A stretch of 36,530 bases of DNA from a bacterium (GTDB lineage Bacteria > Zixibacteria > MSB-5A5 > GN15 > FEB-12): contig JARGFS010000015.1 in NCBI GenBank assembly GCA_029211095.1, positions 1 to 36,530 on the forward strand, written 5' to 3'. The translations under genes and the position numbers were made by a program. Positions 21,865-27,265 of this stretch are shown here, piece by piece; the first letter of the stretch is position 1; each line of letters begins with the position of its first letter. The notes beneath the pieces are model-generated. The model did not search any database and was not told the DNA's origin. It worked only from the letters and a program-made list of their open reading frames with translations.

Positions 21865-22641
21865 ATGGTCAATATCACTATAAACGGGAAGACGGCCCAG
21901 GCCAAAGAAGGTGAGATGCTCCTGAGTGTGATCCGTCGCCTTAAGATCGATGTCCCCGCCCTCTGCCACCACGAAGCGGTCGAACCACTTGGCGCCTGCC
22001 GTCTCTGTATGGTAGAGATCACCAAGACCGAATGGGATGGCTGGAGCAAGTTTGTAACTTCCTGCCTCTACCCTGTCGAGCCGGACCTGATTGTTTCCAC
22101 CCATTCTGATCAGGTCAATGAGATTCGCCGCACGATTATGGACTTGTACCTGGCCCGACATCCTAACTCACCGGAGATTCGGAAACTGGCCGAGGAATAC
22201 GGTGTACTCAAAACCAGCTACGAAGTTCAGGTCGATGGTGACAATTGTATTCTCTGTGGCATCTGCACCCGTATCTGCGATGCGATGGGCTTTCATGCCA
22301 TTTCATTGGTCGGACGCGGACACGGCAAGACAGTCGCTCCTCCCCTAAACGAAGCGCCGCCGGATTGCACCGGATGTCTCTCCTGTGCCCTGAACTGCCC
22401 GACCAATTTCATTGAGTTCTCAGACCAGGATGACAAAAGGACCATCTGGAACAAAGAGTTTGAAATGCTGGCCTGTGTCAAATGCGGAGCCACCACAATC
22501 ACCAGGGAGTTTGCCGAACATTTGAGCAAGAACAGAGATATACCGTTTGAGTATTTTGAAACGTGCGACAGTTGCCATCGCAAGGAAACTTCGCTGACTA
22601 TGGGTCGTATCGCCGCCTGGACCAAGGAGGCCCAGTCATGA
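21865..22641 (+). CDS. NuoG N-terminal/HoxU-like iron-sulfur protein ([2Fe-2S] + [4Fe-4S] clusters)
   Basis: LCHHEAVEPLGACRLCMVEI; CILCGICTRICD; CTGCLSCALNCP; extra C-terminal CVKCG..CDSCHRKE. Confidence 0.87.
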   Translation: MVNITINGKTAQAKEGEMLLSVIRRLKIDVPALCHHEAVEPLGACRLCMVEITKTEWDGWSKFVTSCLYPVEPDLIVSTHSDQVNEIRRTIMDLYLARHPNSPEIRKLAEEYGVLKTSYEVQVDGDNCILCGICTRICDAMGFHAISLVGRGHGKTVAPPLNEAPPDCTGCLSCALNCPTNFIEFSDQDDKRTIWNKEFEMLACVKCGATTITREFAEHLSKNRDIPFEYFETCDSCHRKETSLTMGRIAAWTKEAQS

Positions 22642-23075
22642 AAAACCGCTTTATCGTTAACCCCGTCCTCTGCACCGGTTGTCGTACCTGTGAGTTGGCT
22701 TGCTCGTTTGCTCATTCGGTCGATGGACAGATGGGGCGCAGCAGGATTTATCCTCTTGATGGCGGCATGACCGACCTCTGGGTTCCGGTTACCTGTCTTC
22801 AGTGCGAAGAAGCGGCCTGTGTCAAGTCGTGCCTGGTCAACGCTCTTCGGCGTAATCCCGACACCGGTGCGATAGAACTGAACGAAGATATCTGTGTCAA
22901 ATGCATGGCCTGTATTGCGGCTTGTCCGTTTGGTTGTGCTCTCCATGACACCCAGCATGACCTGATTATCAAGTGCGATCTTTGCGGAGGTGACCCGGCC
23001 TGCGCCAAGTTCTGCCCGACCAAGGCGCTTGAATACAAACCTTTCGAGACCAAGAAGAAGAAGCTCGCCGGTTGA
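22638..23075 (+). CDS. CooF/HycB/HydN-like 4Fe-4S ferredoxin subunit
   Basis: MKNRFIVNPVLCTGCRTCELACSFAHS...CLQCEEAACVKSC...CVKCMACIAACPFGC...CDLCGGDPACAKFCPT; ATGA overlap with upstream gene. Confidence 0.85.
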   Translation: MKNRFIVNPVLCTGCRTCELACSFAHSVDGQMGRSRIYPLDGGMTDLWVPVTCLQCEEAACVKSCLVNALRRNPDTGAIELNEDICVKCMACIAACPFGCALHDTQHDLIIKCDLCGGDPACAKFCPTKALEYKPFETKKKKLAG

Positions 23076-23166
23076 CCCACATCGTGGGACTTATTCCTTC
23101 GGACAGCGACTGAGGCCTCTATTGGTCAAACAGTCACTGCTACAATAAGAATCCATAATTTCAGGG

Positions 23167-23279
23167 TGCCACGCCCAAACTTGCTTTGGGCGTCCTTCTA
23201 AATCTAATCCGGGACAAACAAGTTTGTCCCGGCCACCCGTCGGCCACCTGTCGGCCACCCATCGACTTACAGCGTGGCA
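23167..23279. repeat. Compound palindromic element: outer IR, two perfect hairpins and an 11-bp tandem repeat
   Basis: TGCCACGC (23167)/GCGTGGCA (23272-23279); ACGCCCAAA-CTTGC-TTTGGGCGT (23171-23193); CCGGGACAAAC-AA-GTTTGTCCCGG (23209-23232); GGCCACCCGTC/GGCCACCTGTC/GGCCACCCATC (23231-23263). Confidence 0.7.
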
Positions 23280-23352
23280 AAGATTGTGGATGGTAGGAAC
23301 CATTTCCTATATAATAGTAGATATTAAGACCGAAATTTTCCAATATTTTCTG

Positions 23353-23381
23353 TTGACAAAGTCAAAACTATCCGATAGAAT
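23353..23381 (+). promoter_or_regulatory. Strong sigma70-like promoter upstream of ABC exporter leader
   Basis: TTGACA - 17 nt - TAGAAT. Confidence 0.65.
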
Positions 23382-23466
23382 AGATGAAACCCGAACAGTT
23401 GAAGTTCGCAAAGTTACGATTATGGTTATGTTCGCTTAGCAACCACATTAACGAGGAACAGATTAA

Positions 23467-23559
23467 ATGATCAATCGACAGTGTCAAATGACAAATCTGG
23501 ACTCCCCGGTCGGCATTACGGCCGTGTGGCGCAATGGGCGAGCTACTATGAACAGATAG
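23467..23559 (+). CDS. Putative 30-codon leader peptide (uORF)
   Basis: ATG with GAGGA 9 nt upstream; MINRQCQMTNLDSPVGITAVWRNGRATMNR*; located between promoter and terminator. Confidence 0.45.
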   Translation: MINRQCQMTNLDSPVGITAVWRNGRATMNR

Positions 23560-23588
23560 CGCATATAGCATTACAAATGCTTTTTCAG

Positions 23589-23621
23589 CCCGTTGCACCC
23601 CAGTTGGTCAACGGGTTTTTT
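23589..23621 (+). terminator. Intrinsic terminator in the ABC exporter leader (putative attenuator)
   Basis: CCCGTTG-CACCCCAGTTGGT-CAACGGG followed by TTTTTT; 5' arm can alternatively pair with 23531-23539. Confidence 0.75.
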
Positions 23622-23676
23622 GTTTGCCTGTTGGTCTGGAACAGAAGATACAGACAGCGCGTAAGGAAATATTGAG

Positions 23677-25473
23677 ATGTTAAATACATATTTTGAAGAT
23701 GAAAAAGTAACCGGCAAGGAAAAGGACATTCCGACCAGGAAAGCCTTCCTGCACTTGCTGCCACTGCTGAAAGAGCATCGTGGAAGACTCTTCTTCTCAT
23801 TGCTGCTGCTGGCGGCAGCCACCGGACTCTCTCTGGTCTGGCCGGTTCTGCTGAAAGACGGGATTGATGGTCCGCTCAAAGAGAATGACTTCAACGCTCT
23901 CTTGATTTTGGCTTGGTGGATTGCCGGAATTCAGATAGTTACGGTCGTTATACAATATATCATGCGCGTCTGGCTTGAGATTATCGGGCAGGATGTGATG
24001 ATTGAACTCAAGGAACGACTGTTTAAACATATTCTGTCATTGGATATCTCGTTTTTTGACCGGAACCCGGTTGGTCGTTTGATGGCCAGGGTGGAGTCAG
24101 ATACGGAGTCGCTCCGCCTCCTGTTCACCAATACAGTCGTGCTGATTGTGGCCGATATGCTGTTGTTGGTGGGGCTGTATGGCGTCCTCTTCTGGTACAA
24201 CTGGCGGATGGCTGCGGTACTGGTGCTCTCGATTCCGGTGATTGGAATCCTGGTCTGGATATTCCATAAGATTACCACCCACAGGTTTCTGGAAGTTCGC
24301 AAGCGGATGGCCGAAGTTACCGCCACCCTGACGGAGTTCCTGCATGGGATGTCTATCGTTCAGGTTTTCCACCGGGGAGATTATGCCCGGGGTCGGGTGT
24401 TCAAGGTGAACGAGAGCAAGTTTAGCGAAGACGCTTATGTGAATATTGCGGTCTGTCTCTTTTTCAACACGGTCTTCTTTTTTGAGTATGTCAAGATTGG
24501 ACTGGTGCTGATTCTGGGACCTGCCTTTGGCATGACCTTTGGCCTGATGATCATGTTCCTGCTATATATCTGGCGTTCGTTTGAGCCAATCTTCCGAACT
24601 TCGGAGCAGCTTTCCAACTTCCAGAAAGCGGTGGCGGGAGCCAAGCGGATATTTGCTCTGCTGGACGAAAAGCCAAAACTGATGGACCCGGTTCGTCCTC
24701 TCCCTTGGCCAGGCTTGAAAAAGAGCATCCGGTTTGAGAATGTCTGGTTCTCCTACAATGATGATGAGAACTGGGTTATGCGCGATGTGAGTTTTGAACT
24801 GCAAGTGGGCACTTCGCTGGCCCTGGTCGGAGTGACTGGTGGAGGGAAGTCTACCGTCATCTCGTTGCTGCTGCGATTGTATGATCCGCAGGAGGGACGG
24901 ATTACAGTTGATGGGATCGACATACGGGAGATGGCCGTGGCCGACCTCCGAAGTCACTTCGCGCTGGTGTTGCAGGATATAATCCTCTTCCCCGGCGACA
25001 TAATCTCCAATATCGGTCTTGATGCCGCGGAGGTCACCGATGCGAGAATCCGGGCGGCTGCAAAAACGGTCGAGGCTGACCGGTTTATTGAACGTCTGCC
25101 AGATGGGTACCAGACCGAAGTATCCGAGAAGGGCTCTAACTTCAGCCGCGGAGAGCGACAGTTGCTGTCGTTTGCCCGAGCGCTGGCGGTAGACCCGGAT
25201 ATTCTGATTCTGGATGAGGCGACCAGTTCGGTTGATCCGGACACGGAACGTCAGATTCAGAATTCGCTCGATACTCTGATGGAGGGTCGCACCTCGTTAG
25301 TGGTAGCGCACCGTCTGGCCACGATCCTGAACGCCAATCAGATACTGGTGATTCGTCGTGGTGAGATTATCGAACGCGGAACACATACTGAGTTGATACT
25401 GCAAAGCGGATACTATTCGAGATTGTTCCACTTGCAGTTTAAGCATAAGAATGGAGTTGCAGCTAATGCATAG
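23677..25473 (+). CDS. ABC exporter half-transporter (permease + NBD), subunit 1 of heterodimer
   Basis: N-terminal TM domain; Walker A GVTGGGKST; DILILDEATSSVD; AHRLATI; signature FSRGERQLLSFARAL. Confidence 0.92.
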   Translation: MLNTYFEDEKVTGKEKDIPTRKAFLHLLPLLKEHRGRLFFSLLLLAAATGLSLVWPVLLKDGIDGPLKENDFNALLILAWWIAGIQIVTVVIQYIMRVWLEIIGQDVMIELKERLFKHILSLDISFFDRNPVGRLMARVESDTESLRLLFTNTVVLIVADMLLLVGLYGVLFWYNWRMAAVLVLSIPVIGILVWIFHKITTHRFLEVRKRMAEVTATLTEFLHGMSIVQVFHRGDYARGRVFKVNESKFSEDAYVNIAVCLFFNTVFFFEYVKIGLVLILGPAFGMTFGLMIMFLLYIWRSFEPIFRTSEQLSNFQKAVAGAKRIFALLDEKPKLMDPVRPLPWPGLKKSIRFENVWFSYNDDENWVMRDVSFELQVGTSLALVGVTGGGKSTVISLLLRLYDPQEGRITVDGIDIREMAVADLRSHFALVLQDIILFPGDIISNIGLDAAEVTDARIRAAAKTVEADRFIERLPDGYQTEVSEKGSNFSRGERQLLSFARALAVDPDILILDEATSSVDPDTERQIQNSLDTLMEGRTSLVVAHRLATILNANQILVIRRGEIIERGTHTELILQSGYYSRLFHLQFKHKNGVAANA

Positions 25474-27265
25474 AAATAAATTCATATGGCTTTGGCAGTA
25501 CTATCGCCGGCACTTTTATTTGCTGGCCGTACTACTGATTTTCACGCCCATCCAGGCTGTCTTCCAGGTGGCGATACCGCGAATGTACGGATTCGCGGTA
25601 GACTTCCTGCAGGCGGGCGAGATTCCGGATGACTGGCTGGCAAAATTGGTGGCCAGCGGCGGAGAGTCGGTCGGGCTCTCCACTCTGACCGCGTTCGGCT
25701 GGGCCTTTATCCTGCTCGGCCTGATCTCGGTGATTCTGTACGCTTATGTGCAGACGCATCGAGCCTGGATGAACTGCCGCCTGGAGATGGAGTTTCGACA
25801 GGATTCATTCTCGCATACAACTTCCAAGGGACCGGACTTTTTTAACAAATTCCGAACCGGTGATTTGGTAACGCGTATGACCGACGATGTGGCGGAGAAG
25901 CTCTCCTGGTTTGCCTGCTCGGGGATATTCCGACTGTATGAGGCGATTCTGAACATCGCGTTCATATTGGTGATGATGATAATGATTGATCCGGTCCTGA
26001 CCCTGTGGACAGCCGGACCATTGCCGATCTTGATTCTGGTTTTCTTCTTTTTCTCAACGGCGCTGGACAAGCAATATGATCATCTCCAGACCCGTATTTC
26101 CCGGTTCAATGATGTCATTGAGGCCTGTTTTTCCGGGATTCGGGTGGTGATGGCCTACGGGCGGGAAAAAGCTCAGAAGAGCAAGTTCCATGAAGCTGCT
26201 GCTGATCGGCGGCAGGCCGAGATACGAACGGTCAAGATTGTCGGCGTAGTGGAATCTCTCTGGTTCTATATCTGGCAATTTGCGCTGGTGATTGTAATGG
26301 TCGCCGGTGGATACATGGTGATCAACCGTGGTCTGTCATACGGAAACATGGCTGTCTTCATTTACTATGTCGTCTGGTTGGTTTTCCCCATGTTTGATAT
26401 CGGGCAGTTTTTGGTGAAATCACGCCAGTCGGCGGTTTCCATCACGCGCCTCAGGGAGCTTGAAGATATGAAGCCAATGGTGGCTGACACCTCTCTTGCC
26501 CACCGCAATGGTGATATCAAGGGAGGATTGTCCTTTGACAAGGTGAGCTTTGCTTTCCCGGAATCTGATCGGCAGGTGATTGAAGATGTTTCTCTGGAGG
26601 TTGCTCCGGGTGAGACAGTCGCGCTGGTTGGCCGAATTGGATCCGGCAAGACATGGCTGGTGAATATGCTTCCCCGTCTGGTAGACCCTTCGGGAGGGAC
26701 GATCACTCTCGATGGACGGGATTTGCGCCAGTTCAGTCTGGAGGACCTTCGGAGAATTATCGGCTATGTTCCCCAGGAGCCGGCCCTGTTCAGTGACACG
26801 GTTCGGAACAACATCACCTTCGGACGGACCGAGATATCGGACGATGAGTTGAACTGGGCGGTCGAAGTCTCCCAGCTCAAAGAGGAGGTGGCGCAGTTCC
26901 CGGAGGGGCTGGAGACTTCAATAGGAACGCGCGGCATGTCTATCTCCGGCGGTCAGAAACAGCGGCTCGGGCTGGCTCGGGCGCTGGTTGGAAAACCAAA
27001 AATCCTGGTGCTGGATGATTGTACTTCGGCTCTTGATTCTCGGACCGAGACCGCGCTTTGGGATCGGCTGCATGAAGTAATGCCGGAGATGACATCGATC
27101 CTGATTACGCATCGGCCGGACCAGTTGCAGAAGGCTGACCGCATTTTTGTTCTCGATGATGGACGCCTGGTTGAGTCCGGACATCATGATGAGTTGATGG
27201 CCGGTAAAACGCTGTATGCTTCGATATACCGTAAATACCAGCTTGAAGCCCAGGTGAATCAGTAA
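25451..27265 (+). CDS. ABC exporter half-transporter, subunit 2 of heterodimer
   Basis: Overlaps subunit 1 (alternative ATG at 25466); Walker A GRIGSGKTWLVN; signature ISGGQKQRLGLARAL; Walker B ILVLDDCTSALD. Confidence 0.92.
   Translation: MELQLMHRNKFIWLWQYYRRHFYLLAVLLIFTPIQAVFQVAIPRMYGFAVDFLQAGEIPDDWLAKLVASGGESVGLSTLTAFGWAFILLGLISVILYAYVQTHRAWMNCRLEMEFRQDSFSHTTSKGPDFFNKFRTGDLVTRMTDDVAEKLSWFACSGIFRLYEAILNIAFILVMMIMIDPVLTLWTAGPLPILILVFFFFSTALDKQYDHLQTRISRFNDVIEACFSGIRVVMAYGREKAQKSKFHEAAADRRQAEIRTVKIVGVVESLWFYIWQFALVIVMVAGGYMVINRGLSYGNMAVFIYYVVWLVFPMFDIGQFLVKSRQSAVSITRLRELEDMKPMVADTSLAHRNGDIKGGLSFDKVSFAFPESDRQVIEDVSLEVAPGETVALVGRIGSGKTWLVNMLPRLVDPSGGTITLDGRDLRQFSLEDLRRIIGYVPQEPALFSDTVRNNITFGRTEISDDELNWAVEVSQLKEEVAQFPEGLETSIGTRGMSISGGQKQRLGLARALVGKPKILVLDDCTSALDSRTETALWDRLHEVMPEMTSILITHRPDQLQKADRIFVLDDGRLVESGHHDELMAGKTLYASIYRKYQLEAQVNQ

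Follow-up and report, generated by a model that had tools for sequence, protein, structure and literature searches.

A probable bmrB-like ribosome-mediated attenuator ahead of a heterodimeric ABC exporter operon in Candidatus Zixiibacteriota

Two adjacent ABC half-transporter genes in the window (the whole stretch of DNA analysed, 36,530 nucleotides) are preceded by a promoter, a short upstream open reading frame (uORF) and an intrinsic terminator. The window derives from a Candidatus Zixiibacteriota MAG, and same-genus and related contigs also belong to Candidatus Zixiibacteriota. The original prediction had proposed a promoter, a 30-codon uORF with ribosome-binding site, a 9-bp antiterminator and a terminator, and all of these are present in the sequence where they had been placed, including the antiterminator pairing of GCAATGGGC (23531-23539) with GCCCGTTGC (23588-23596). 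The leader additionally contains a weak strand 1 upstream of the uORF, which had gone unmentioned. We consider it very likely that the locus represents a ribosome-mediated transcription attenuator that is bmrB-like yet laid out in its own way, and that it controls a heterodimeric type IV ABC exporter operon. Its elements are as follows:

23353 to 23381, forward strand: sigma-70-type promoter TTGACA-17-TAGAAT (TTGACA 23353-23358, 17-nt spacer, TAGAAT 23376-23381; 11 of 12 positions match)
23386 to 23390, forward strand: GAAAC, presumed transcription start (found in 43 of 70 leaders, 58-90 nt 5' of the uORF)
23443 to 23446, forward strand: strand 1 (putative anti-antiterminator), weak in the window; CCAC opposite GTGG at 23526-23529, adjoining strand 2
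23453 to 23457, forward strand: Shine-Dalgarno sequence GAGGA for the uORF, from the sequence
23467 to 23559, forward strand: uORF of 30 codons, MINRQCQMTNLDSPVGITAVWRNGRATMNR, from the sequence; orthologous leaders carry uORFs too
23531 to 23539, forward strand: strand 2, the antiterminator strand within the uORF, GCAATGGGC, from its pairing with strand 3, covariation and fixed position relative to the uORF stop
23588 to 23596, forward strand: strand 3, common to antiterminator and terminator, GCCCGTTGC, from its pairing with strands 2 and 4 and covariation
23589 to 23621, forward strand: intrinsic terminator CCCGTTG-13 nt-CAACGGG-T6 (strands 3:4), from the sequence and covariation across 36 leaders
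23677 to 25473, forward strand: ABC-1, half-exporter of the BmrD/TM288/TmrA type with degenerate signature NFSRGE, from structure matches; ATG at 23677
25451 to 27265, forward strand: ABC-2, half-exporter of the BmrC/TM287/TmrB type with Walker B LDD replacing LDE, from structure matches

In a 3-kb promoter scan (22000-25000), the listed promoter was by far the top match. The terminator arms are CCCGTTG (23589-23595) and CAACGGG (23609-23615), with the T6 tract ending at 23621. It is absent from the list produced by a simple terminator scan because its 13-nt loop exceeds the 8-nt loop limit of that scan. The window thus contains an intrinsic terminator ahead of a structural gene, an antiterminator whose formation would exclude it, and a translatable uORF with a ribosome-binding site between promoter and terminator. 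Statistics from this single leader are modest, both for the fold of the whole leader (z = -1.5) and for the 2:3 duplex compared with shuffled uORFs (p = 0.02).

The original prediction had also named the pump as a heterodimeric ABC exporter, an assignment backed by PDB matches and a degenerate NBD motif. In the PDB comparison, ABC-1 matched TmrA, BmrD and TM288, and ABC-2 matched TmrB, BmrC and TM287, with the top scores for both going to eukaryotic ABCB proteins. The degenerate signature NFSRGE was found in all 30 ABC-1 orthologues, and ABC-2 lies directly 3' of ABC-1 in 29 of 30 orthologous loci. The locus therefore shows the two adjacent half-transporters and single degenerate ATP site of a heterodimeric type IV ABC exporter. 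No NCBIfam equivalog scored above its cut-off for the exporter. The pump is described as a putative heterodimeric type IV exporter resembling TmrAB, BmrCD and TM287/288.

To learn how widely the arrangement occurs, we compared the regions upstream of ABC-1 homologues. Such homologues were present in 61 of 61 relatives. With the threshold for close homologues set at E <= 1e-140, they occurred in 98 of the 133 genomes sampled for the class, the same set serving as the phylum sample. Ninety-one upstream regions were read, and 88 of these were readable after L165, which lies inside the gene, and the masked L161 and L162 had been left out. In 83 of the 88 orthologous leaders, a promoter, a uORF of about 25 codons, an antiterminator strand inside the uORF, the stop codon, a terminator and the ABC gene follow each other in this order; a leader was counted when uORF, antiterminator strand and terminator were present, and L122 was counted with the uORF end only. 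Because it is shared this widely, the arrangement in the window is more than chance. It occurs in ten families (f1-f5, f9, f10, f15, f16 and f18). The original prediction would be contradicted by orthologous loci without a terminator, a uORF or the pairing. Such loci were sought, and the exceptions were confined to two groups: three f17 loci (L144-L146) have no leader, and in genus g27 (L116, L171) the uORF ends early, upstream of strand 2, and is followed by a weak terminator, so that the switch looks decayed or changed there. A TTGACA/TATAWT-like promoter stands at the same place in most orthologous leaders, with a median of 78 nt between the -10 element and the uORF ATG.

A CM built from these leaders gave essentially one match per genome, at ABC-1. 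Those of the additional matches that were examined proved to be a second copy of the leader in G028, leaders rich in Trp, and weak matches. The second copy (L172, G028:C1:815200-818800) duplicates the entire leader and precedes a truncated ABC-1 paralogue of that genome.

The orthologous leaders also allowed the uORF to be characterized, and the ribosome-binding site, frame, length and spacing kept among them back the view that it is a genuine element of the leader. An SD-like tetramer precedes the uORF in 65 of 70 leaders (23.1 expected), and uORF lengths are mostly 22-31 codons with a mode of 25. The distance from the end of strand 2 to the uORF stop is 18 nt in 42 of 70 leaders and mostly 9, 12 or 15 nt in the others, while the distance from the stop to strand 3 has a mode of 24 nt and is mostly 22-30 nt; in the window, the terminator starts 29 nt past the stop, compared with about 24 nt in other leaders. 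Given the known footprint of a ribosome, one that has reached the stop codon would only just leave strand 2 uncovered. The peptide itself is much less constant. In close pairs, uORF length was equal in 17 of 18 while the peptide drifted, and pN/pS of the uORF was 0.58, a value that includes RNA constraint. The peptides of L001 and L002 are about half identical, with ABC-1 at 91%. It suggests that translation matters more than the peptide, the reading frame being kept and the peptide hardly so. No run of regulatory codons was found in these uORFs, in contrast to the Trp-rich leaders ahead of trpE (L173, L174).

Covariation supports two competing helices. Among 36 diverse leaders, 93.8% of cells in the 2:3 helix were paired, with 26 double-changed cells against 9.7 expected (sd 2.4; reached in 0 of 500 shuffles; shared ancestry uncorrected), and sliding the helix by 1-3 columns reduced pairing to 34-56%. 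The 3:4 helix in the same leaders had 98.8% paired cells and 10 double changes against 2.3 expected, again uncorrected for shared ancestry. As strand 3 is used by both helices, compensating changes run through strands 2, 3 and 4, for example GCGACGGG / CCCGTCGC / CGACGGG in L024 and L027 versus GCGGCGGG / CCCGCCGC / CGGCGGG elsewhere. The central pair of 2:3 was then counted over 70 leaders, strand 2 being chosen by consensus alone. The strand 3 and strand 2 bases were C-G in 48 leaders, T-A in 10, T-G in 10, C-C in 2 and C-A in none; T thus occurs with A and C never does (Fisher 6e-7), the T-A pair being found in families f1, f4 and f18, with counts uncorrected for shared ancestry. Swapping strand 3 between species weakened the 2:3 duplex from -19.28 to -16.35 kcal/mol (sd 0.32; 9 sd). 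Families f2 and f3 show the same kind of pairing through other sequence and are individually less significant. Covariation of both helices on the common strand 3 bears out the predicted mutual exclusivity of antiterminator and terminator, and the location of strand 2 inside the uORF agrees with the proposal that a translating ribosome would cover it. Comparison among leaders shows the leader elements, their tight spacing and the predicted competition of 2:3 with 3:4, and it supports the original interpretation as a putative ribosome-mediated attenuator.

Strand 1 is a less pronounced element, with a median position of -27 to -15 from the uORF ATG. Pairing of strand 1 with its own strand 2 was better than with swapped partners (p 0.0002 overall, and also within f1); within f4 and the remaining families the direction was the same, without significance. 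Flanking control regions gave no such signal against strand 2 overall, and the first uORF codons, used as a control, gave p 0.0035 in the small set of other families. In the window, the 1:2 duplex of -14.5 kcal/mol is weak (p 0.06). Ensemble folding of 70 leaders gave 1:2 at 0.72 without a ribosome, 2:3 at 0.93 with an early-stalled ribosome and strand 4 not yet made, and 3:4 at 0.97 when a ribosome occupied strand 2. In full-length leaders with an early-stalled ribosome, 3:4 (0.68) was on average favoured over 2:3 (0.28), so antitermination would have to be kinetic. For the window leader in the same state, 2:3 was favoured (0.91).

In the mechanism that we propose, RNA polymerase would start from the promoter at 23353-23381 and produce a leader RNA containing the short uORF, in which strand 3 could pair with either strand 2 or strand 4. 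A freely moving ribosome would cover strand 2 as strand 3 emerges, 3:4 would form and transcription would end. With no ribosome on the RNA, strand 1 would tend to take strand 2, allowing 3:4 to form again, a step that is probably weak in the window. A ribosome stalled or slow early in the uORF would instead part strands 1 and 2 and leave strand 2 free, which could then form 2:3 before strand 4 exists, and polymerase would continue into ABC-1 and ABC-2. The uORF would thus report ribosome speed and not one amino acid, so that cells would produce the pump during translation stress, for example that caused by ribosome-targeting antibiotics. We infer from these leaders that the uORF is translated, that slowed ribosomes most likely cause the switch to turn the pump on, and that translation stress is the natural inducer.

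Several other explanations were weighed against this mechanism. A nascent uORF peptide might, together with one drug class, stall the ribosome at a set codon, as with macrolides at R/K-x-R/K, a motif known for macrolide-dependent stalling. This motif occurs at residues 2-11 in 17 of 79 uORFs (6.8 expected from a within-segment shuffle), and a C-terminal R-G-G-R recurs. However, 62 of the 79 uORFs are without the motif, whose excess may stem from residue preferences at codons 3 and 5 or from nucleotide preferences close to the uORF start. Strand 2 dictates R-G-G, and in some leaders it is read in another frame (A-A-G). The divergence of the L001 and L002 peptides described above also argues against a specific arrest peptide. 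Having considered it, with the R/K-x-R/K excess as weak support, we find such a leader rather unlikely. An amino-acid attenuator of the trp or his type would have the identical four-strand layout, and the CM built here also recovers the Trp-rich leaders ahead of trpE; yet a single-codon run is missing, the excess of Gly and Arg coincides with strand 2, and the operon encodes an exporter instead of a biosynthetic pathway, making this option very improbable.

The uORF could also be incidental to a metabolite riboswitch or a protein-binding attenuator. Conserved motifs in the 5' UTR could serve as binding sites, namely GAAAC (43/70 leaders vs 2.8 expected from shuffling, 58-90 nt upstream of the uORF) and, further down, CGTA (44/70 vs 7.3 expected), as could a TGTGA-N6-TCACA palindrome present in about a third of the leaders. 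Against this stand the ribosome-binding site, frame, uORF length and stop position kept in ten families, together with an Rfam scan of the whole window that gave zero family matches at gathering score (riboswitch, T-box and others); in leaders without the palindrome, structure between strands 2 and 3 does not clearly exceed the chance level. We regard this possibility as quite unlikely. The modest statistics of the window alone (z -1.5) would be compatible with a plain terminator and a chance ORF, an explanation that is contradicted by conservation, covariation and tight spacing over ten families and has a practically negligible probability.

Ribosome-mediated attenuation of an exporter operon is best compared with the bmrB leader of the bmrBCD operon in Bacillus subtilis, where translation is required for lincomycin-induced read-through and removal of the terminator abolishes control (PMC4191407). 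Both leaders combine a leader ORF, translated in bmrB and presumably so here, with an intrinsic terminator, a predicted antiterminator and anti-antiterminator, and a heterodimeric ABC exporter (PMC4191407). The bmrB analogy drawn in the original prediction is therefore apt in mechanism, but the layout differs: bmrB has 53 codons and its terminator lies inside the coding sequence (PMC4191407), whereas the leaders described here have about 25 codons and a terminator about 24 nt past the stop, outside the reading frame. The subunit order is also reversed relative to bmrBCD, and the phylum is different. PatAB, an ABC exporter of Streptococcus pneumoniae, is likewise preceded by an attenuator (patA) for which a terminator, an antiterminator and an anti-antiterminator are predicted; in the parts of that report available to us, no leader peptide is described and the inducing signal is not established (PMC4319486), while a uORF is present here. 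The trp leader shares four mutually exclusive strands and a uORF, ribosome position choosing between terminator and antiterminator. It differs from the present leaders, which have no regulatory codon run, and in which strand 2 is wholly within the uORF, strand 1 is upstream of the uORF start and the stop is 18 nt beyond strand 2. In E. coli, ribosome-targeting antibiotics of several classes are sensed by the toiL uORF of topAI via stalling at different places, as would be the case in our proposal, but toiL acts on translation with Rho-dependent termination (PMC12121999), in contrast to the intrinsic terminator here. A survey from 2010 reported that many ABC transporters are preceded by attenuators, among them a multidrug exporter of lactobacilli (PMC2965389), and our literature search for Zixibacteria and attenuator found no such paper. 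The mechanism class is already known, and the leaders described here would be a new member of it that has its own layout and spans the phylum.

Bacillus provided a first described case of a multidrug ABC exporter under leader-peptide attenuation, and the same principle would now be found in an uncultured phylum. Coupling of pump synthesis to ribosome speed would accordingly have arisen, or been kept, well outside Firmicutes, and the exporter family may serve in translation stress. Such a switch would imply transcription-translation coupling in Zixiibacteriota. Furthermore, about eighty natural variants provide material for testing how far apart uORF, antiterminator and terminator need to be in such switches. 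In f2 genomes, trpE is preceded by Trp-rich uORFs (WWWW) with a terminator after them (L173, L174), and L175 has a Trp-rich uORF ahead of a short ORF. These are likely trp attenuators in Zixiibacteriota; judging from their sequence, the trpE leaders with a terminator make coupled attenuation plausible in this phylum.

About a third of the leaders have the TGTGA-N6-TCACA palindrome over the uORF stop; it is absent from the window. It was observed in L003, L012, L017, L024, L137 and about 25 more leaders, with a spacing that is nearly always 6; its TGA is usually the uORF stop, and in L138, L139 and L157 the palindrome follows shortly after the stop. It may represent a Crp-type site or a pause element. 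A general role as an RNA pause hairpin was rejected, as hairpins between strands 2 and 3 do not clearly exceed chance where the palindrome is missing. Genome-wide, the pattern gave 73 sites against 13 for a reversed control in 7 genomes, and most sampled sites were inside open frames according to a crude ORF test. A Crp-type HTH (PF13545) scored above cut-off in 3 of 4 genomes, one of these matches being only partial, and none was found in G009. One could go further and picture a peptide-independent, phylum-wide gauge of ribosome speed tied to one core exporter, with evolution keeping the geometry of the uORF: a length of about 25 codons, six codons between the end of strand 2 and the stop, and a strand 1 lying immediately 5' of the start. 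In about a third of species, a protein at TGTGA-N6-TCACA over the uORF stop would in addition stall RNA polymerase so that the ribosome catches up. We hold this extended scheme to be unlikely.

Two further features were observed near the leader in the window. A perfect palindrome, CCGGGACAAACAAGTTTGTCCCGG, at 23209-23232 is followed by CGGCCACC repeats, between the upstream operon and the leader promoter. A tiny ORF, ATG-TTC-GCT-TAG, at 23428-23439 lies immediately 5' of the ribosome-binding site of the uORF, and an ATG with a stop within a few codons was seen by eye, without counting, at the same place in many leaders.
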